Below are positions 16,056 through 59,800 of a stretch of DNA of 64,000 nucleotides, in pieces. The notes below the pieces were generated by a model. That model searched no databases. It was not told the origin of the DNA and saw nothing but the letters and a program-made list of their open reading frames with translations. Numbering within the stretch: the first letter of the stretch is position 1; each line of letters begins with the position of its first letter. The translations under genes and the position numbers were made by a program. The stretch comes from Ricordea florida (Eukaryota; Cnidaria; Anthozoa; Corallimorpharia; Ricordeidae): NCBI GenBank assembly GCA_949710005.1, contig OX453286.1, forward strand, positions 251,001 through 315,000, read 5' to 3'.

Positions 16056-19000
16056 TTATGATTTGCTGGTTGGCGGCTTTAAAACGTTTCCATCTGGGTA
16101 GCGTTTTTTAAAACGTGCAACAACGTCCGGATCTAACAGCCGAACGCCGTCCAGTTGGTTTCCAAGGGTTATCCTACAGAAACAACAAGAAAAAAATATC
16201 CATTAATAAACGGGGTTTTTAGTAATGCAAGACAGTAATATTTACGCTGAAATGCCATATATGTTGTCACATAAATTTAGCAAATATTTCTACCGCCATT
16301 TCCGCTGACAATACGCGTCTTTTAGTTAGAAAAGAGTACAAGAGTTTCCATGCCATCTACCCCGATATTTTCAGTTAAAACGTGTTTTCCAAGTAAGGAT
16401 GAAGCAAGAGGGACCCGTTCTCACAAATGCCAAAAATGGCATAATAATGGTATCTTAAGTTTCTGCAGCAGAAATTCAACAATTTACTTCTTGCAATATA
16501 TTGTCTTCTGCAGATAACACGCGCCTATGGAGCTTTCTTACCAGTTAGGTTGAACATTATGCTGTCTGCCAAACAGTTCTGTTGAAGAATGAACGATAGA
16601 TTAGTTATCTTCAGAGGGGTGGAGTGGGTGGGGGATTATCATCACTGTCCAGGTTAAATTGAAGTGAACGGGGAGGGGAGGGTAGGAATGTAAGATGATA
16701 AGTTAGGAGAGGGGGGAGGCAATCAGTCACTCCTGCAGCCAAATACTGTCCCACCCATCCCTCTCCCCTGCCAGGCTTGGGTTCGCGTTCGTGTGTGACG
16801 TAACTTCAAGAACATTCAAACAACATAACGACCGGCGAAAACAATACTCGGGCTTATGTTGTTACCTATTTTTCTTGTTCCTGGGGCTAGCCGTTCAATG
16901 ACGCCATATATTTCGTCTGGTTTGTGGCTTGTTTGTCTGACCTGCGAGTCAAAACAAGGAATTGAAATGATCCGATTACTCTTATAATCATAACTATAAC
17001 AAAATTCTCAAATTTGATTGGCTATCAACTGCCCTGATTTCAGCCTTTATTACACCCATTTTGAAATCACCGGTGATTCCTGCAATTTGATTGGCTCATA
17101 GCAGTGTGATTTATTCATAAATTGCACCATTTTTTGCTCTAAATCGCATCATTTTTAAAAAGTTACTTTTCTTCAAAAACCCGGTCTTCCAGAAGTGGAA
17201 AAATAAATAAGTAGTATTGACAAAAAACTGTGATTTCAAAATGAGTGTAATAAAGTGGTAATTGAACTTCGTGTCGTGCAATTTTGGTCTGAAATCATAC
17301 TTGTGATTTCATATCGAACTCGCGCTATGCGCTCGTTCGATATTTGAAATCACGCGTATGATTTCCATTATTAATAGGACAGTTAAATAGGACAGTACGC
17401 GTCATGTTTAAGTAATTGGACAGTATGCGCCATTACGCGCGCGCTTAAATGGTTTTTTTCACGGCTAACAAAAAAAATCTTGGAATTTCATGTATTTTGA
17501 TATTAAAAAAAGAAGTTTATATGTCACAAATTTTGTTAAAGTTATGATTAATTGGTAATAAGACTTTGTGATTAAACAAATCAAACTCCCGCTACGCGGT
17601 CGTCCGACTTTGTTAATCACTCGTATGATTACAGACCGAATTGGACTCCACTCAGTCCTATTACCATTACTAATTGTGTCAATAACAAAATGCTATAATA
17701 CGACTGGTTGTTAACAGCCTTTATTTATGGCTTGATTGGCTGTTTCAGGTCCAAACTATCCGATTTGACCTGTCCGACTTCAAACATTTGTAATCGGACA
17801 GTTAAAGCAGCCAATAAAACCTGAGCACTTCATTCCATTAGCAAATGAACTTTAACCACCTAGCCCATCCTAGCCAATCAAAATCAAAGAAAATTTCTTC
17901 AGTGAGCAGGTTTACAGGTGTAGCCTGTCCATGTTTGTTTTCTGATTGAAAACAAACATGGACGAAATTAAAGGTCCCTCGCCCGACTAATCCCTGAATT
18001 GTACCCCACCTGGTCCTATTACCATTAAGTATAGTCCTAGCGCTCTTACAGCACTGAAAATAGCAAATTAAGGAAGGTTGTTTAATCGTCACCGGAAAGG
18101 TATAATAACACAATTTCCATGAAATCGAAATTTTCAAAGTCCGGCAGAGAAATTCTACATGCGAGACCCCCAATTTGAATGAAGGTTACAAGACTGTTGA
18201 TGAACCAAGTTCAAGAAACAAACCTCAGCCACTAGCACATCACAATCAAGCCCTCGATTGAAGTTCTTGCATTCTCCCTTCACTCCAACCTGAAAAGCAA
18301 AAGAATGCAGCTGTATCATAAATACATGTTCTTATGTTCAAAACGTGAAACGTTCGGTCATTAGTCTTTCACTGCTCAGTTAACCACAAACAGCAAAAAT
18401 TGAACATGGTGGAGTGCGCTATCGATAAAATATAATTAATCTTCCCCATACTGACCACAAAATGTCTATGTATATGGAACCTTCTTCAGTTAAACCAAGG
18501 TCTATTGCATTAAGTTATAGGTTTGCAGTTTACTTGAAATGGTCATGTATGTAAGTAATCTTGATGTGTCCTGAGATTTCCCTACCAGGCAGTGCTCCTT
18601 TCCGTGGTTAAGCCAATGACCAGTTCGTCCAGTCCTTATAAGGCGTTGCAGTTGGTTCGTTTTTACCCATATCAACTCGTCACACCGCGCATATCTGTGT
18701 ACCAAACAGCACAGCTCAGCTAACCATACTGAAAACGTTACATTTCTAGTATTAGGGAATCGTCCTAATATTAGGGAGCTTTTAAGCTCGTCTAGTATTA
18801 GGGAGTCGTCCGAATGCTGGGGAGCTTTTAAGCTCGTCTAGTATTAGGGAGTCGTCCAAGTATTAGGGAGCTTTTAAGCTCGTCTAGTACTAGGGAGTCG
18901 TCCTAGTATTAGGGAGCTTTTAAGCTCGTCTAGTATTAGGGAGTCGTCCTAGTATTAGGGAGCTTTTAAGCTCGTCTAGTATTAGGGAGTCGTCCAAGTA

Positions 19001-22000
19001 TTAGGGAGCTTTTAAGCTCGTCTAGTATTAGGGAGTCGTCCAAGTATTAGGGAGCTTTTAAGCTCGTCTAGTATTAGGGAGTCGTCCAAGTATTAGGGAG
19101 CTTTTAAGCTCGTCTAGTATTAGGGAGTCGTCCAAGTATTAGGGAGCTTTTAAGCTCGTCTAGTATTAGGGAGTCATCCTAGTATTAGGGAGCTTTTAAG
19201 CTCGTCTAGTATTAGGGAGTCGTCCAAGTATTAGGGAGCTTTTAAGCTCGTCTAGTATTAGGGAGTCGTCCGAATGCTGGGGAGCTTTTAAGCTTGTCTA
19301 GTATTAGGGAGTCGTCCTAGTATTAGGGAGCTTTTAAGCTCGTCTAGTATTAGGGAGTCGTCCAAGTATTAGGGAGCTTTTAAGCTCGTCTAGTATTAGG
19401 GAGTCGTCCAAGTATTAGGGAGCTTTTAAGCTCGTCTAGTATTAGGGAGTCGTCCAAGTATTAGGGAGCTTTTAAGCTCGTCTAGTATTAGGGAGTCGTC
19501 CTAGTATTAGGGAGCTTTTAAGCTCGTCTAGTATTAGGGAGTCGTCCGAATGCTGGGGAGCTTTTAAGCTCGTCTAGTATTAGGGAGTCGTCCTAGTATT
19601 AGGGAGCTTTTAAGCTCGTCTAGTATTAGGGAGTCGTCCAAGTATTAGGGAGCTTTTAAGCTCGTCTAGTATTAGGGAGTCGTCCTAGTATTAGGGAGCT
19701 TTTAAGCTAGTCTAGTATTAGTGAGTCGTCCCAATGTTGGGGAGATTTTAAACTCGTCTAGTATTGGGGAGTCATCCAAGTACTAGGGAGCTTTAAGCTC
19801 GTCTAGTATTGGGGAGTCATCCAAGTATTAGGGAGCTTTTAAGCTCGTCTAGTATTAGGGAGTCGTCCTAGCATTAGGGAGCTTTTAAGCTCGTCTAGTA
19901 TTAGGGAGTCATCCAAGTATTAGGGAGCTTTTAAGCTCGTCTAGTATTAGGGAGTCATCCAAGTATTAGGGAGGTTTTAAGCTCGTCTAGTATTAGGGAG
20001 TCATCCAAGTATTAGGGAGCTTTTAAGCTCGTCTAGTATTAGGGAGTCGTCCTAGTATTAGGGAGCTTTTAAGCTCGTCTAGTATTAGGGAGTCGTCCTA
20101 GTATTAGGGAGCTTTTAAGCTGGTCTAGTATTAGGGAGTCGTCCAAGTATTAGGGAGCTTTTAAGCTCGTCTAGTATTAGGGAGTCGTCCAAGTATTAGG
20201 GAGCTTTTAAGCTCGTCTAGTATTAGGGAGTCGTCCAAGTATTAGGGAGCTTTTAAGCTCGTCTAGTATTAGGGAGTCGTCCAAGTATTAGGGAGCTTTT
20301 AAGCTCGTCTAGTATTAGGGAGTCGTCCAAGTATTAGGGAGCTTTTAAGCTCGTCTAGTATTAGGGAGTCGTCCAAGTATTAGGGAGCTTTTAAGCTCGT
20401 CTAGTATTAGGGAGTCGTCCTAGTATTTGGGAGCTTTTAAGCTCGTCTAGTATTAGGGAGTCGTCCAAGTATTAGGGAGCTTTTAAGCTCGTCTAGTATT
20501 AGGGAGTCGTCCAAGTATTAGGGAGCTTTTAAGCTCGTCTAGTATTAGGGAGTCGTCCAAGTATTAGGGAGCTTTTAAGCTCGTCTAGTATTAGGGAGTC
20601 GTCCTAGTATTAGGGAGCTTTTAAGCTAGTCTAGTATTAGTGAGTCGTCCCAATGTTGGGGAGATTTTAAACTCGTCTAGTATTGGGGAGTCATCCAAGT
20701 ACTAGGGAGCTTTAAGCTCGTCTAGTATTGGGGAGTCATCCAAGTATTAGGGAGCTTTTAAGCTCGTCTAGTATTAGGGAGTCGTCCTAGCATTAGGGAG
20801 CTTTTAAGCTCGTCTAGTATTAGGGAGTCATCCAAGTATTAGGGAGCTTTTAAGCTCGTCTAGTATTAGGGAGTCATCCAAGTATTAGGGAGCTTTTAAG
20901 CTCGTCTAGTATTAGGGAGTCATCCAAGTATTAGGGAGCTTTTAAGCTCGTCTAGTATTAGGGAGTCGTCCTAGTATTAGGGAGCTTTTAAGCTCGTCTA
21001 GTATTAGGGAGTCGTCCTAGTATTAGGGAGCTTTTAAGCTCGTCTAGTATTAGGGAGTCGTCCAAGTATTAGGGAGCTTTTAAGCTCGTCTAGTATTAGG
21101 GAGTCGTCCAAGTATTAGGGAGCTTTTAAGCTCGTCTAGTATTAGGGAGTCGTCCAAGTATTAGGGAGCTTTTAAGCTCGTCTAGTATTAGGGAGTCGTC
21201 CAAGTATTAGGGAGCTTTTAAGCTCGTCTAGTATTAGGGAGTCGTCCAAGTATTAGGGAGCTTTTAAGCTCGTCTAGTATTAGGGAGTCGTCCAAGTATT
21301 AGGGAGCTTTTAAGCTCGTCTAGTATTAGGGAGTCGTCCTAGTATTTGGGAGCTTTTAAGCTCGTCTAGTATTAGGGAGTCGTCCAAGTATTAGGGAGCT
21401 TTTAAGCTCGTCTAGTATTAGGGAGTCGTCCAAGTATTAGGGAGCTTTTAAGCTCGTCTAGTATTAGGGAGTCGTCCAAGTATTAGGGAGCTTTTAAGCT
21501 CGTCTAGTATTAGGGAGTCGTCCAAGTATTAGGGAGCTTTTAAGCTCGTCTAGTATTAGTGAGTCGTCCAAGTATTAGGGAGCTTTAAGCTCGTCTAGTA
21601 TTAGGGAGTCGTCCTAGTATTAGGGAGCTTTTAAGCTCGTCTAGTATTAGTGAGTCGTCCAAGTATTAGGGAGCTCTAAGCTTTTAAGCTAGTCGTCGTT
21701 TTTGCTTAAAAGCAAGAACGACGACGACGCCGAGGACGGCACGTTTTTAAAAAATGGATTTGTTTTTCTCCTGTACCAATGGAGGCTGGCTTGTTTCATT
21801 TTCTTTCCATAATTTTTCAAACCGCCGATTTTTCCAACTTAACCCGTTTACAGTTCATTACAAATTTTTCTTGGCAATTTTGTCGTTCTGCACTCGCGTC
21901 TTCCAGAAAACCTGAGAAACGGTCATTTCTCGTTGCTGTTTTGCAGAGGAAGGCAAAGAAATCTACCAGACTGAATCTGCACGTGCAGTTTCATTGTTTC

Positions 22001-25000
22001 ATTCATCAACGCTATTGTTTGGTGCCGTTGTAGTCGACGTCGCCGTCCTGTTTTGCTTAAGGTCCCTATTCACTCTTAGCGGGGACGAGCACGCAAAGCC
22101 GCGCTTGAAATCAAACAACACGCACCCTTATGGAAATTACTATGAAGACAACTGTTTGGAGGTTTAGAATTTAACCGAAGAACGAAGACAAATCATACAG
22201 ATATGTGTGAAACACACACTTAAAAGACACACTTAAACGGCGTGGGATTAGTTACAAGTCAAACACACGCAAATGAACGCAGCTGTAACGCAGAAACTAC
22301 AACAGTGCTACTGTCGGCCGCCCATCCGTTTACCAGCAATCAGTCGGTCAAGGATTCACAGAAGTCGCGCTTTGGCTGAATACAGACTGTGCTTTTCTTT
22401 TAGTGTACGAAGATTATTAATCAAAAGAACGTATTACCGGGACCGGTTTTCATCAAATTCACTCAAATTCAAAATAGAAAAGGACAGCACTCACCCCCAC
22501 AGCTTCAGACATTCGCGCCCCAATTCCATGGCACTGAAAATAAAACAAACCTACAGCTTCAGTACACCGAGAGTCACTCAGCCATCAGTCATAATGTACA
22601 ATGAGAACATTACAGTTCTTTTAGTGTGTACTCTGTGTGTGAGAGTTCGATACGATCGTAAAAATACACAAACAAGCCCTAAAAAGTGGACACTCGCCAT
22701 TTGCGGTACGGCTACCAGTTTAATTAGAGTGAGAGACAGAGTGAGAGCACCTTTATAGCTGATTTTTGCACGTTCTGCAGTAAAAATCAAAAGCCAGCTA
22801 AGAAAAAAACCACGCATGTTATATCATGTATGTACATCACGGGCAGGATCATGGAACTAAAATGTAGTGCGTATTTGATCAACGTTGACACTTAAATTAA
22901 TGGCGGCCATAAAGTGATGAACACTCACCCCCCCCCCCCCCCCCCCCTCTACATATTTATTGTTATTCTGTGCAAACAGAGAAACGTACCGTCCTGTGAC
23001 CCACAGGAAAATATATCCTTCGTCCTGCAGAGAAGGAACATCCAGTTTCCTCATCTCATCATCAGACATTGTACCATAAGGCAACTGAACAAAAGGAACA
23101 CATACATTGTTGAAATGTTCTGGGGTTTTTGGTCTAAGTTCTTAGGTGGAGTTCGATCGTCTGGGTGTACTAGTTCTGAAAAGAACTGTTCAGTGATAAC
23201 GCTGACTGACGTTTTGACAACCTGAGCGGAAGTCAACATCAGAATTATTGAATGAGTTCCGTGCCGTCAGGTGGTGGTATTTATGTCTCTGGGTACCGCA
23301 TACCATATGAGCCAGCACTTATGGGATTGACCGCTGGATGCCCGCTAGGATTGTGGGGGTAGGTACTTCATATATGATTCCTATAGTGTACCGATATATA
23401 GATTCATGTACTGCACTCTTTAGTACTTGCGTACTTGAGTGTCTTGGTTTACTTCAGTAACTTGGCGTACTTGAGGTACTTTGCTTACTTCAGTAACTTG
23501 GCGTACTTGAGGTACTTTGCCTACTTCAGTACCTTGGCGTGCTTGAGGTACTTTGCTTCCTTCAGTAACTTGGCGTGCTTGAGGTACTTTCCCTACTTCA
23601 GTAACTTGGCGTACTTGAGATACTTTGCCTACTTCAGTAACTTGGCGTACTTGAGGTACTTTGCCTACTTCAATAACTTGGCGTACTTGAGTGTCTTGGC
23701 CTACTTCATTAACTTGCCGTACGTGAGGTACTTTGTCTACTTCAATAACTTGGCGTTCCTGAGGTACTTTCCTTACTTCAGTAACTTGGCGTACTTGAGG
23801 TACTTTGCCTACTTCAGTAACTTGGCGTACTGGAGTGTCTTGGCCTACTTCATTAACTTGGCGTGCTTGAGGTACTTTACCTACTTCAATAACTTGGCGT
23901 ACTTGAGGTACTTTGCCTACTTCATTAACTTGCCGTACTTGAGGTACTTTGTCTACTTTAATAACTTGGCGTTCCTGAGGTACTTTGCTTACTTTAGTAA
24001 CTTGGCGTACTTGAGGTACTTTGCCTACTTAGGTAACTTCGCGTGCATGCCTGAGGTACTTTGCCTACTTCAGTAACTTGGCGTGCTTGATGTACTTTGC
24101 TTCCTTCAGTAACTTGGCGTGCTTGAGGTACTTTGCCTACTTCAGTGACTTTGCGTGCTTAAGTGTATTGTTCTACTTCAGTAACATGGCGTACTTGAGG
24201 TACTTTGCTTACTTCAGTAACTTGGCGTGTTTGAGTGTCTTGCCAAGTTAGTGAAGTAGGCCAAGACACTCAAGTACGCCAAGTAACTAAAGTAGGCCAA
24301 GACACTCAAGCACGCCAAGGTACTGAAGTAAGCAAAGTACCTCAAGCACGCCAAGTTACTGCATAAAGTAAGCCAAGACACTCAAGTAGGGCAAGTTTCT
24401 GAAGTAAGCCAAGACACTCAAGTACGCCAAGTTACTGAAGTAGGCAAAGTACCTCAAGCACGCCAAATTACTGAAGTAAGCCAAGACACTCAAGTACGGC
24501 AAGTTACTGAAGCAGGCAAAGTACCTCAAGCACGCCAAGGTACTGAAGTAGGCAAAGTACCTCAAGCACGCCAAGTTACTGAAGTAGGCAAAGTACCTCA
24601 AGTACGGCAAGTTACTGAAGTAGGCCAATACACTTAAGCACGCAAAGTCACTGAAGTAGGCAAAGTACCTCAAGCACGCCAAGTTACTGAAGGAAGCAAA
24701 GTACATCAAGCACGCCAAGTTACTGAAGTAGGCAAAGTACCTCAAGCACGCCAAGTTACTGAAGTAAGCCAAGACACTCAAGTACGGCAAGTTACTGAAG
24801 CAGGCAAAGTACCTCAAGCACGCCAAGTTACTGAAGTAGGCAAAGTACCTCAAGCACGCCAAGTTACTGAAGTAGGCAAAGTACCTCAAGTACGGCAAGT
24901 TACTGAAGTAGGCAAAGTACCTCAAGCACGCCAAGTTACTGAAGTAGGCCAAGACACTCAAGTACGCCAAGTTACTGAAGGAAGCAAAGTACCTCAAGTA

Positions 25001-28000
25001 CGCCAAGTTACTAAAGTGGGCAAAGTACCTCAAGTACGTCAAGTTACTGAAGTAAGGAAAGTACCTCAAGCACGCCAAGTTACTGAAGTAGGCCAAGACA
25101 CTCAAGTACGCCAAGTTACTGAAGTAAGCAAAGTACCTCAAGTACACCAAGTTACTGAAGTAGGCAAAGTACCTCAAGTACGCCAAGTTACTGAAGTAGG
25201 CAAAGTACCTCAAGCACGCCAAGTTACTGAAGGACGCAAAGTACCTCAAGCACGCTAAGTTACTGAAGGAGGCAAAGTACCTCAAGCACGCCAAGTTACT
25301 GAAGGACGCAAAGTACCTCAAGCACGCTAAGTTACTGAAGGAGGCAAAGTACCTCAAGCACGCCAAGGTACTGAAGTAGGCAAATTACCTCAAGTACGCC
25401 AAGTTACTAAAGTAGGCAAAGTACCTCAAGTACGTCAAGTTACTGAAGTAAGGAAAGTACCTCAAGCACGCCAAGTTACTGAAGTAGGCCAAGACACTCA
25501 AGTACGCCAAGTTACTGAAGTAAGCAAAGTACCTCAAGTACGCCAAGTTACTGAAGTAGGCAAAGTACCTCAAGTACGCCAAGTTACTGAAGTAGGCAAA
25601 ATACCTCAAGCACGCCAAGTTACTGAAGGACGCAAAGTACCTCAAGCACGCTAAGTTACTGAAGGAGGCAAAGTACCTCAAGCACGCCAAGTTACTGAAG
25701 GACGCAAAGTACCTCAAGCACGCTAAGTTACTGAAGGAGGCAAAGTACCTCAAGCACGCCAAGGTACTGAAGTAGGCAAATTACCTCAAGTACGCCAAGT
25801 TACTAAAGTAAGCAAAGTACCTAAAGCACGCCAAGGTACTGAAGTAGGCAAAGTACCTCAAGCACGCCAAGTTACTGAAGTAGGCCAAGACACTCAAGTA
25901 CGCCAAGTTACTGAAGTAAGCAAAGTACCTCAAGAACGCCAAGTTACTGTAGTAGGCAAAGTACCTCAAGTACGCCAAGTTACTGAAGTAGGCAAAGTAC
26001 CTCAAGTACGCCAAGTTACTGAAGGAGGCAAAGTACCTCAAGCACGCCAAGGTACTGAAGTAGGCAAAGTACCTCAAGTACGCCAAGTTACTGAAGTAAG
26101 CAAAGTACCTAAGGCACGCCAAGGTACTGAAGTAGGCAAAGTACCTCAAGTACGCCAAGTTACTGAAGTAGGCAAAGTACCTCAGGAACGCCAAGTTATT
26201 GAAGGAGACAAAGTACCTCAAGGACTGCAAGTTAATGAAGTAGGCCAAGACACTCAAGTACACCAAGTTATTGAAGTAGGTAAAGTACCTCAAGTACGTC
26301 AAGTTACTGAAGTAGGCCAAGACACTCAAGTACGCCAAGTTACTGAAGTAAGCAAAGTACCTCAAGTACGCCAAGTTACTTAAGTAGGCAAAGTACCTCA
26401 AGCACGCCAAGTTACTGAAGTAGGAAAAGTACCTCAAGTACGCCAAGTTACTGAAGTAGGCCAAGACACTCAAGTACGCCAAGTTACTGAAGTAAGCAAA
26501 GTACCTCAAGCACGCCAAGTTACTGAAGTAGGCCAAGACACTCAAGTACGCCAAGTTACTGAAGTAAGCAAAGTACCTCAAGCACGCCAAGTTACTGAAG
26601 TAGGCAAAGTACCTCAAGTACGCCAAGTTACTGAAGTAGGGAAAGTATCTCAAGTACGCCAAGTTACTGAAGTAGGCAAAGTACCTCAAGCACGCCAAGT
26701 TACTGAAGTAGGCAAAGTACCTCAAGCACGCCAAGTTACTGAAGGAAGCAAAGTACCTCAAGCACGCCAAGGTACTGAAGTAGGCAAAGTACCTCAAGTA
26801 CGCCAAGTTACTGAAGTAAGCAAAGTACCTTAAGTAAGCCAAGTTACTGAAGTAAGCCAAGACACTCAAGTACGCAAGTACTAAGGAGTGCAGCATATGA
26901 ATCTATATATCGGTACACTATAGGAATCATATATGAAGTACCTACCCTTGTGGGCCGCTTGACCGCTAAGCTTGCAGACTGCTTAACTCGTGGACCGCTA
27001 GACTTGTGGATCGCTTAACCGCTAAGCTTCTGAACTGCTTGACCGCTAAGCTTACAGAGGGGGGTGAATAGGAAAACGGATCGACGGATTTTGACAATAT
27101 TCTGGCCCGGATTTCGGATTCAGAGCATATTTTTCAACGGATTTGCGGATCCTTCAATAACGGATCGACGGATTTGGTCATTAAATTACAACGGATCGAC
27201 GGATTCGGTCATTAAATTATGACGGATCAGCGGATTTGCATACCCCTATTCACCCCACTCCTTATAACCGCTTGACCGATAAGCTTGTGGACCGCTAAAC
27301 TGCTAAGCTCGTGGTAGTTAACCTAGTTAAATTACATTTAACCAAACTTAACTATCACTTCAAAATACTGTAACTTGAGAGCAACAAGATAAGTAGCATA
27401 CCTCCATGTGAATATCCCAAGGAGGATCTGCCATCACAACAGAAAACTTGCCAAGTACACTCATGTCAAAGTATCTCATATCACACTGGATCCACTACAG
27501 CAAGGAAATGCATGGAAACAGCTACTACACTGTAACACTGATTAACTATAATGCATCACTGTTGCTAAAATTCTGTACAATTTGCAACTTTAAAGAAAAA
27601 AACAACAACAAATACTGTGAACTGGGATATCTGAAAAACCCTTCAATATAGTCAATTTCCTTTAAGTCATTTTTGTCATTCAGATACATGCAGGAAAGGC
27701 GATATATATATATTTATTATATAGACACGAGTGTTTTACTGGAAAATATACCACTCGTAAAATTCATAAAAACTACATCCGGGACCTGAGTGGTTTATTT
27801 TCCATAATCTCACACGTGAGTTTATCAATGACGTAATTTCGGTAATTTCCCTCCGAAATTTGTGTCGATGTCTTTTTGTCTATATAATAAAAAGAACATT
27901 ACACGGCGGCTTGAAGATATGAATTTTATTTTCTCGTGGCAAAAACAATATTTTACTTGCTGCACTCGTTCGTAAAATATTGTTTTGCCACTCGAAAATA

Positions 28001-56800: not shown

Positions 56801-59800
56801 TCGAGAGGAATTTCAGTGAGTTGTACGTTGTTTGACAGTGGTGGGCAGATAATCGGCGTGACTAAGGCCATTATCTTGATGTGCTCGTTTACCGCGTTTA
56901 AGGTAAATGTTACGACCTCATACGTCTTTGTAGTACTTTCAGTCGTTCCAAATGTGGTTATGTCCAGTGTCTCATTCAGGATGGGTTTTAGTTGTAGCTT
57001 ATTCCTCAAGTCTTGTGTAATAAATGTTTTCTGTGATCCTGTGTCGATGAGGATGCGTGCTTGACGTCGTGTAGTTGGTCCGCTTGCTGTGACGATAGCA
57101 GTTTGTAGAAGTGCGTTTGTGCGAGTAGTAGTCGCTAAGGTTGTTGATGCGGGCCTAACGTCTTTGCTGTTTTGTAGTGAGCTTTCCTGTCGTTCGGCCG
57201 GTTTTTTGTTCGAATCTTGACTTGTTTCGCTTGGTTCGCAAATTGAGGTGTGGTGTTTTAGTCCGCAATTAAGGCATCTTCCTCTTGAGCGGCATTGGTA
57301 TTTTGTGTGGCCCGAGCGGAGGCAATTTAAACATCTCGTTTTTTGACTAAGTATCGTTTTTCTCTGTTTTGTTGTTTTCACTATATGGCAGTTGTTGTGG
57401 CGGTGTTTACCGTCACAGTATATGCATGGTTTTAAATCAGGTTTGTTGTGCATGTAGGGAGGTTTTTGCGGAGGTGGTGATTTGCGCTGGGAATATGTTA
57501 GTAAAGCGCCGGCAGTAGGTACGAAAATGTCGTCTGTAGTAGACACTGATGGATTGGTATCATGAGATAATTGGCTGTTTTCTCTTGTTTCCAGTTCTTG
57601 GCAAATCGCTCTCCGCAGACCATTAAGTGAGCTATATGCTGTAGGGTTAGCCCTGAAAATTATGCATCGTAAATCTTCTGGCAATTTTGTAAGGAGTATC
57701 GGAATTAACAGGCTTCCATAGCAGTCTGTCTGTACTCCCAATGTTTCTAAAGCGCGAATGTTGCTTTCGCAGTCATCATAAAACTTTCGCAGTTGTTGAA
57801 CATCCATTGAAGGGGTATTGAGTTTTGACAGTGATTCCATGTGCGCGTTAATTAAAACTTGTTTTCTTCCAAATCGTTCTTGTAGCATTCCAATTGCTTT
57901 ATCTTAGTTTTGTGACGTGATTGGTACTCCCGAAATCGCGCGCGCTGCGCCTCCAGTTATCATGCTTTTTAGATTAATTAGATTAATTTATTATTTATTA
58001 ATTATTTATTATTTATTAATTTATTATTTATTTATTAATTTATTATTTCATCTTGTTGATGCTGTGTAGATCGGGATTGTTGTGTACTGCATTATTAAAG
58101 CTATCCCAAAATGTTCACCATTCCAAGGGGTTGCCGTCAAATGGTTGGATTTGCAATTTTAGATAATTCATCTTGTTGATGCTGTGTAGATCGGGATTGT
58201 TGTGTACTGCATTATTAAAGCTATCCCAAAATGTTAACCATTCCAAGGGGTTGCCGTCAAATGGTTGGATTTGCAATTTTAGATAATTCATCTTGTTGAT
58301 GCTGTGTAGATCGGGATTGTTGTGTATTGCATTATTAAAGCTATCCCAAAATGTTAACCATTCCAAGGGGTTGCCGTCAAATGGTTGGATTTGCAATTTT
58401 AGATAATTCATCTTGTTGATGCTGTGTAGATCGGGATTGTTGTGTACTGCATTATTAAAGCTATCCCAAAATGTTCACCATTCCAAGGGGTTGCCTTCAA
58501 ATGGTTGGATTTGCAATTTTAGATAATTCATCTTGTTGATGCTGTGTAGATCGGGATTGTTGTGTACTGCATTATTAAAGCTATCCCAAAATGTTCACCA
58601 TTCCAAGGGGTTGCCGTCAAATGGTTGGATTTGCAATTTTAGATAATTCATCTTGTTGATGCTGTGTAGATCGGGATTGTTGTGTACTGCATTATTAAAG
58701 CTATCCCAAAATGTTCACCATTCCAAGGGGTTGCCGTCAAATGGTTGGATTTGCAATTTTAGATAATTCATCTTGTTGATGCTGTGTAGATCGGGATTGT
58801 TGTGTACTGCATTATTAAAGCTATCCCAAAATGTTAACCATTCCAAGGGGTTGCCATCAAATGGTTGGATTTGCAATTTTAGATAATTCATCTTGTTGAT
58901 GCTGTGTAGATCGGGATTGTTGTGTACTGCATTATTAAAGCTATCCCAAAATGTTCACCATTCCAAGGGGTTGCCGTCAAATGGTTGGATTTGCAATTTT
59001 AGATAATTCATCTTGTTGATGCTGTGTAGATCGGGATTGTTGTGTACTGCATTATTAAAGCTATCCCAAAATGTTAACCATTCCAAGGGGTTGCCGTCAA
59101 ATGGTTGGATTTGCAATTTTAGATAATTCATCTTGTTGATGCTGTGTAGATCGGGATTGTTGTGTACTGCATTATTAAAGCTATCCCAAAATGTTAACCA
59201 TTCCAAGGGGTTGCCGTCAAATGGTTGGATTTGCAATTTTAGATAATTCATCTTGTTGATGCTGTGTAGATCGGGATTGTTGTGTACTGCATTATTAAAG
59301 CTATCCCAAAATGTTAACCATTCCAAGGGGTTGCCGTCAAATGGTTGGATTTGCAATTTTAGATAATTCATCTTGTTGATGCTGTGTAGATCGGGATTGT
59401 TGTGTACTGCATTATTAAAGCTATCCCAAAATGTTAACCATTCCAAGGGGTTGCCGTCAAATGGTTGGATTTGCAATTTTAGATAATTCATCTTGTTGAT
59501 GCTGTGTAGATCGGGATTGTTGTGTACTGCATTATTAAAGCTATCCCAAAATGTTCACCATTCCAAGGGGTTGCCGTCAAATGGTTGGATTTGCAATTTT
59601 AGATAATTCATCTTGTTGATGCTGTGTAGATCGGGATTGTTGTGTACTGCATTATTAAAGCTATCCCAAAATGTTAACCATTCCAAGGGGTTGCCGTCAA
59701 ATGGTTGGATTTGCAATTTCGGGAGATTAATGTGAGCTCTAAATGTTGGTTTGCTCTCTTCTATATTTGTGTAATGGAGCGGACTCACCGGTAGTTGTCT

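Follow-up and report, generated by a model that had tools for sequence, protein, structure and literature searches.

Foldback transposons have been described mainly from flies, plants, and nematodes; the TU elements of sea urchins carry foldback arms of approximately 15-bp tandem units and an 8-bp target-site duplication (TSD), and Galileo of Drosophila combines a TSD of 7 bp with an internal domain of considerable size. The structure presented in this study resides in a stretch of 64,000 nucleotides from the corallimorph Ricordea florida (hereinafter the window; contig OX453286.1, C15:251001-315000 in our numbering), where two opposed arrays of a 36-bp unit lie between exon segments of the METTL3 gene. 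As judged from sequence comparisons, this structure most probably (estimated probability of about 0.93) represents one copy of a family of non-autonomous, cut-and-paste DNA transposons of the foldback type. Long inverted repeats with opposed internal tandem repeats, dispersed copies with shared termini, and target-site duplications, by which foldback elements are recognized, were all found.

Several related systems are described in those sections of the following publications that were compared. Tetris/DAIBAM of Drosophila virilis is likewise a non-autonomous foldback element with terminal repeat domains, internal tandem repeats, and TSDs of 8–10 bp, for which no autonomous copy was found (PMC4079207). 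Its repeats, however, are approximately 220 bp long and also occur as free satellite arrays, and the sections compared describe no target motif at a fixed distance (PMC4079207), whereas the family studied here is built of 18- or 36-bp units, no free array of which was seen among 100 listed places. Tm1, a Mutator/Phantom foldback element of root-knot nematodes, is similar in its composite terminal inverted repeats (TIRs) with a variable number of mostly 14-bp units, its arms of unequal length, its TSD size, and the end motif CCTACCC, but differs in having a 9-bp TSD, asymmetric end motifs, one to nine units per TIR, and known transposase-bearing copies (PMC3169594). The unit sequences of Tm1 and the present family appeared unrelated by eye. 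Galileo, a foldback element of the P superfamily, shares long, internally repetitive TIRs, and its tandem repeats hold binding sites for the THAP domain of the transposase, the most proximal one being located approximately 70 bp from the end (PMC3688188); it differs by its P-type transposase. By analogy, the arrays described here may carry repeated transposase-binding sites.

Furthermore, Merlin elements possess terminal GG and TSDs of 8 or 9 bp, and internal tandem repeats have been noted (PMC8101967), but no Merlin transposase was linked to the family termini compared. The Mutator-related Rehavkus elements feature a minisatellite ahead of the 3′ TIR and TIRs of 26–400 bp, but differ in their 9-bp TSD, the one-sided position of the minisatellite, and a PHD-finger transposase, the tabulated hosts being only arthropods and annelids (PMC6446971). 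CMITEs of Acropora are also non-autonomous cnidarian elements and can form tandem arrays; in contrast, they are approximately 100 bp long, generate a TTAA TSD (piggyBac), and have unrelated termini (PMC2872659). The titles, openings of abstracts, and passages of open-license papers that were compared contained no account of the termini reported below, nor of any foldback element whose target motif lies at a fixed distance.

Architecture of the Element in the METTL3 Intron

A first-pass annotation of the window, made from the letters alone, had proposed opposed 36-bp arms of about 22 and 73 units inside METTL3. Tandem Repeats Finder (TRF) reproduced these values, reporting 22.7 copies with 85% matches at positions 23418–24235 and 73.2 copies with 88% matches in the opposite sense at positions 24242–26879. 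The sequences 23357–24049 and 26255–26947 form an inverted repeat with 91% complementarity, and the 20-base terminus was found at two places in the window (23357, forward; 26947, reverse), compared to a mean of zero in 100 shuffles. The near-identity of the TIRs was likewise recovered (73/76 positions between left and right): the non-repetitive part of the TIR comprises 76 bp, the likeness then running on into the arrays, and the array units start at approximately position 77 from the element end in most of the 14 copies analyzed. The METTL3 assignment is correct: the element is located between two minus-strand exon segments whose translations, joined to 44 amino acids, retrieved METTL3 chains from the PDB with a best value of 2.5e-22.

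The first-pass description thus proved accurate, but the element boundaries had to be shifted by one base at each end. Among the listed genome matches of the 20-mer terminus originally proposed, which began with GGGTAGG, the first base was A, C, G, or T; it is therefore not part of the element but of the target, and a search fixing G at this position is biased. The element thus extends from 23358 to 26946 (GGTAGG...CCTACC), with the adjacent outer bases representing the target. The TTGTGG(G) border noted on both sides is present, but the duplication is not of 6–7 bp; it measures 8 bp and, in some family members, 9 bp. When an 801-nucleotide part of the element was folded as RNA, a z value of −31 was obtained in comparison to 20 shuffles. 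Array-bearing copies also put hairpin-forming sequence into their targets, which in this case is an intron of METTL3, the gene encoding the m6A writer. The coordinates of all features are compiled in Table 1.

Dispersed Copies, Subfamilies, and Other Termini

The source genome (537.8 Mb, 48 contigs) was searched for further loci featuring the same termini (GGTAGGTAC...GTACCTACC). The original 20-mer retrieved 22 exact matches versus none for the reversed control, and 237 versus 48 when three mismatches were allowed. A gapped terminus pattern of 33–35 bases identified 78 ends on 15 contigs (reversed control: 0); these belong to the two subfamilies described below, apart from a small number with a third kind of terminus. 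The lack of any other locus with these termini, which the first-pass annotation had named as refuting its view, was thereby disproved. Copies were examined in 16 regions of 10 kb around exact matches outside the window and, in addition, as further ends and whole copies. The whole copies read mostly showed the order TIR, array, opposed array, TIR. The smallest copies fetched measured 97 bp (L068), approximately 140 bp (L067), and approximately 270 bp (L049), being too short for real arrays, and the largest copy consisting entirely of array reached 10 kb (L051).

The latter belongs to a sister subfamily (B), of which 25 ends were found; subfamily B ends also mark an 8.2-kb stretch at C15:11496681-11504857. 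It has the same outer 18 bases (GGTAGGTACTTCATATAT), a different inner TIR, and units of 18 bp; the three copies read (3.7, 6.1, and 10 kb) follow the same plan. Seven ends, no two of them near each other, matched GTAGGTACTTCATATATGGTANATTNTTATGTACC with up to three mismatches and represent a third type of terminus (Table 1). The 3 kb read inward from the one on C14 (L074) contained no array. Such array-less termini were considered as autonomous elements and rejected, the five open reading frames tried in this stretch giving no Pfam match that reached a curated cut-off. The GGTAGTTACTTCATATATC-type ends at L057 and L058 resemble a different repeat family and were excluded from the flank logo. 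In phage collections, no match was obtained; three exact 18-mer matches in IMG/VR had unrelated surroundings.

Target-Site Duplications and Empty Sites

To describe the insertion sites, 30 flank pairs were compared, leaving out both copies at L009 and single ends such as L015; in one case (L048/L018), two ends separated by 43.5 kb and by further elements were presumed to form a pair. Direct repeats of 8 bp were identical at all positions in 12 of the 30 elements and at seven or more in 17, whereas mismatched flank pairs reached these values in only 1 and 3 of 870 cases, respectively. Three more elements showed a 9-bp duplication (at least 8/9), and no other length between 5 and 11 bp stood out. 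Copies with target duplications different from that of the window copy, which the first-pass annotation had suggested looking for, were thus obtained.

Several elements were found inserted in high-copy host repeats. Joining the flanks of an element with a single duplication copy (41 bp) and searching for the uninterrupted sequence with up to three mismatches yielded 206 matches (14 exact) for one target and 196 (67 exact) for another, with no match for the reversed controls; the uninterrupted sequences thus represent empty sites of the paralogous kind. Three separate elements, L013, L023, and L046/L047, which between them cover the two subfamilies, occupy the same nucleotide of the repeat with 206 empty copies, and L063 is probably located at this nucleotide, too. 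A second insertion site is shared by L011 and L040. The repeat hit by L013, L023, and L046/L047 may itself be a transposon, because some of its empty copies were listed as inverted pairs approximately 1.1 kb apart.

These data also bear on the explanation that an ordinary intronic minisatellite was inverted once, its TIRs and the short flanking repeat having arisen accidentally or in the course of that inversion. An inversion can indeed yield two opposed arrays of one unit, and TTGTGG recurs in the flank at 27004 and 27285, so that the window copy alone would be weak evidence for transposition. However, TIRs enclosing opposed arrays occur at many loci with different 8-bp duplications, empty sites exist, and the 100 listed of the 154 places of the unit included no free array. 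This explanation is refuted for the family and very improbable for the window copy, and the view of the first-pass annotation, according to which the whole structure forms one mobile element whose arms are arrays, is upheld by the shared termini, the differing short duplications, and the paralogous empty sites.

A Target Motif at a Fixed Distance

Insertions of the family tend to be separated by a constant distance from a motif resembling GTCAGCGG, which is usually present on one side only, approximately 8 bp beyond the 8-bp duplication. In the whole genome, CAGCGG was found within 30 nucleotides upstream of GGTAGGTACTTCATAT at 18 places, 17 of them at a spacing of 15–18 and one at a spacing of 6; as two places duplicate others, 15 of 16 distinct places fall into the 15–18 range. 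For the flank logo, 80 ends were reduced to 73 by removal of seven spurious, duplicate, or other-family ends, and to 68 by collapsing flanks of at least 70% identity. CAGCG started at positions −24 to −21 in 21 of these 68 ends (shuffled flanks: mean 0.24, maximum 3 in 2000 runs), and 21 of its 26 occurrences fell into these 4 of 36 positions (p = 3e-16). At the level of elements, YAGYGR was located approximately 16 bp from the element on either side in 21 of 30 cases, with elements sharing a target repeat counted separately, versus 1 of 30 in a control window.

Tentatively, and with somewhat less than even odds, the transposase may choose its target via an address of approximately 8 bp, GTCAGCGG, situated about 8 bp outside the 8 bp that are cut, addressing being one-sided and the arrays serving as multi-site landing platforms of freely variable length. 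Alternatively, the motif could be a bystander that is not read by the transposition machinery, for example a component of host regulatory elements or of other repeats in open chromatin attracting insertions. Consistent with a bystander, a number of the targeted sequences are high-copy repeats, and certain flanks resemble promoters, featuring the putatively YY1-like sequence GCCATTTTGG. On the other hand, the tight spacing of the exact motifs and of CAGCG given above, as well as the insertion of three elements of both subfamilies, and probably L063, at the same nucleotide of one repeat, render a bystander role rather unlikely. If this off-site motif is read by the transposase, the family would be an unusual instance of a eukaryotic DNA transposon with a readable address, which could help to identify the transposase and to investigate how targets are chosen.

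Regarding the mechanism, the family most likely behaves as a foldback transposon that borrows its transposase: an enzyme encoded elsewhere would recognize the 76-bp TIR, perhaps assisted by the repeated 18- or 36-bp sites of the arms, in analogy to Galileo. A staggered cut followed by insertion would then leave the observed duplication of 8 or sometimes 9 bp. The insertions are associated with the GTCAGCGG-like motif, which is found approximately 8 bp beyond the duplicated bases at one end of the element or at both; its reading by the transposase is presumed. After insertion, each arm would grow or shrink by slippage or unequal exchange, mostly within the arm, as suggested by the relationships of the units, and the arms would thereby become unequal in length.

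Some observations weigh against the assignment to a foldback transposon family. At the thresholds set, no clear duplication of 8 or 9 bp was seen in 10 of the 30 elements, among them L056 with a 6/6 repeat, and the motif, searched by means of a regular expression, was missing at the expected place in nine. The duplication of the window copy itself (ATTGTGGG versus CTTGTGGG) matches at only seven of eight positions, and its motif is a variant. Approximately one in five of the 237 terminus matches obtained with three mismatches may be due to chance, given the 48 matches of the control. Inverted instead of direct flanks were observed at the inner copy of L009 (approximately 160 bp; outside the 30 pairs) and at L011 (approximately 8 bp). 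Finally, no transposase was recognized inside any copy read, and none of the Merlin or Mutator-like element (MULE) matches compared was convincingly linked to the family.

Two of these loci deserve description. At L009 (3921–5491), a family copy is located at the center of a palindrome, with the inverted flanks of approximately 160 bp in place of a direct duplication. At the right end of L011 (8440–8525), the terminus is present as a tandem duplication of 42 bp and is accompanied by rearranged copies of CCAAAAGG, resembling an aborted excision or a repair scar. The inverted flanks at both loci look as if repair had copied past a hairpin end.

Array Units and Turnover of the Arms

The 36-bp unit consists of two diverged 18-mers that are identical at 13 of 18 positions, accompanied by the GTAC-TTGAG-GTAC symmetry that had already been noted for the unit. 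The 18-bp unit of subfamily B is identical to one half of the 36-mer at 16 of 18 positions, from which we infer that the 36-bp unit originated by dimerization of an older 18-bp unit, which the sister subfamily has retained. Comparison by eye of the exact 36-mer places with the TIR ends showed that each of the 100 matches listed, out of 154, is located within approximately 3.6 kb of a TIR end.

In the 14 copies analyzed, comprising 654 units, arms contained between 0 and 72 units each. The nearest relative of a unit was found within its own arm 3.9 times as often as expected; the corresponding ratio was 1.44 for the opposite arm of the element and 0.81 for other elements. As units are closest to those of their own arm, the arms seem to grow and shrink mostly independently. 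As one subfamily is built of 18-bp units and the other of 36-bp dimers, the family displays two array stages, and it becomes directly testable how higher-order tandem repeats originate inside a transposon.

Candidate Transposases

The first-pass annotation had suggested looking for a linked transposase, and none was found. The genome contains at least 150 Pfam matches for Merlin (DDE_Tnp_IS1595) and at least 48 for MULE. Of these, 146 and 47 matches, respectively, were compared with 116 termini, which are part of those in the genome and include five ends of the GGTAGTTACTTCATATATC type, and none was located inside a delimited element.

A transposase of the Merlin type (IS1595 class) is a plausible candidate, held with slightly less than even confidence. 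The GG termini and the 8–9-bp TSD of the family are both Merlin hallmarks, and Merlin domains are numerous in the genome. However, none of the 146 matches compared was enclosed by the termini, and the nearest ones lie approximately 15 kb away from a pair of 270-bp copies on C11, apparently duplicates of one locus; two matches were seen within 20 kb inward, compared to 0.63 expected.

A MULE transposase is also conceivable, if somewhat more doubtful. The 8-bp TSD falls into the range of 8–11 bp published for MULEs, and one element of the Spectre clade combines 8-bp TSDs with 74-bp TIRs, but most of the groups compared have TSDs of 9 bp or more (PMC6446971), whereas those found here are mostly of 8 bp. 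Tm1, with its mostly 14-bp units and CCTACCC end motif, is a MULE foldback element, and further foldback precedents exist for Mutator (PMC3169594, PMC6446971, PMC4079207). On C13 (region 6864000-6874300), one MULE domain was detected at a distance of 6.3 kb, in the inward direction, from an end of subfamily B; chance alone predicts approximately 0.2 such cases within 20 kb. This end, however, has no partner end within three mismatches of the B pattern, and a 200-bp sample between domain and end contained no array unit; the C13 MULE was therefore rejected as partner.

A Polinton has to be considered as well, as a Polinton-like gene set of 17 kb lies between two family termini on C15 (L042/L052/L053, C15:23933159-23950259) and another is located near a family end at L018, so that the arrays might be the TIRs of an autonomous Polinton partner. 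The C15 stretch, however, is bounded by AGAGAGAGG ends of its own, with CTTGG as a 5-bp direct repeat in the 36-bp array, indicating that the Polinton-like stretch was inserted into the array. As autonomous partner it is refuted for C15, and the explanation is highly implausible overall. The ends of the C15 element align at 179 of 191 positions, gaps being the sole differences. At L018, where the Polinton-like element lies near an array, its left end was not found. Likewise, a BEL-like retroelement within an array at L016 was rejected as part of the family and represents an insertion. The designations Polinton and BEL were assigned by impression; integrase-core (rve) Pfam matches back the two Polinton-like loci tried, L018 and L027.

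Features of the Window and Host Gene Surroundings

Table 1. Features of the array-armed element and the adjacent METTL3 segments (window positions), and ends of the third terminus type (contig positions).
Feature	Position	Strand	Basis
Left target-site duplication copy, 8 bp, ATTGTGGG	23350..23357		7/8 match to right copy; 8 bp is the main family length among 30 elements
Left TIR, 76 bp, begins GGTAGGTACTTCATATATG	23358..23433	+	73/76 versus right TIR
Left arm, ~22 units of 36 bp (dimers of diverged 18-mer)	23434..24235	+	TRF; 20 units scored
Junction, flip of array orientation, essentially without spacer	24236..24241		Arrays end at 24235 and start at 24242
Right arm, ~73 units of 36 bp, opposite orientation	24242..26870	-	TRF; 72 units scored
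Right TIR, 76 bp, ends CCTACC	26871..26946	-	Terminus match, TIR comparison
Right target-site duplication copy, 8 bp, CTTGTGGG	26947..26954		Flank comparison
Target-motif position, CCGCTA (TAGCGG toward element), 8 bp outside duplication	26963..26968	-	Variant of family motif GTCAGCGG, right side only
Open segment holding METTL3 exon part preceding the element	27363..27494	-	Translation and PDB match; exon borders approximate
Open segment holding next METTL3 exon part, ...FLWVTGR	22860..23141	-	Translation and PDB match; exon borders approximate
Third-type ends	C9:6119257, C13:11164775, C14:3294925, C4:1686987, C12:1005140, C12:22299021, C1:23096404		Up to 3 mismatches to GTAGGTACTTCATATATGGTANATTNTTATGTACC

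A second long tandem array is located between METTL3 exon segments at window positions 18745–21682, consisting of 64 copies of a 46-bp unit with 95% matches; no TIR of the family was seen in the flanking stretches read. At positions 58047–59719, a 120-bp unit (40 codons, in frame) is repeated in 13.9 copies with 99% matches in the gag region of an apparent BEL/Pao-like retroelement.

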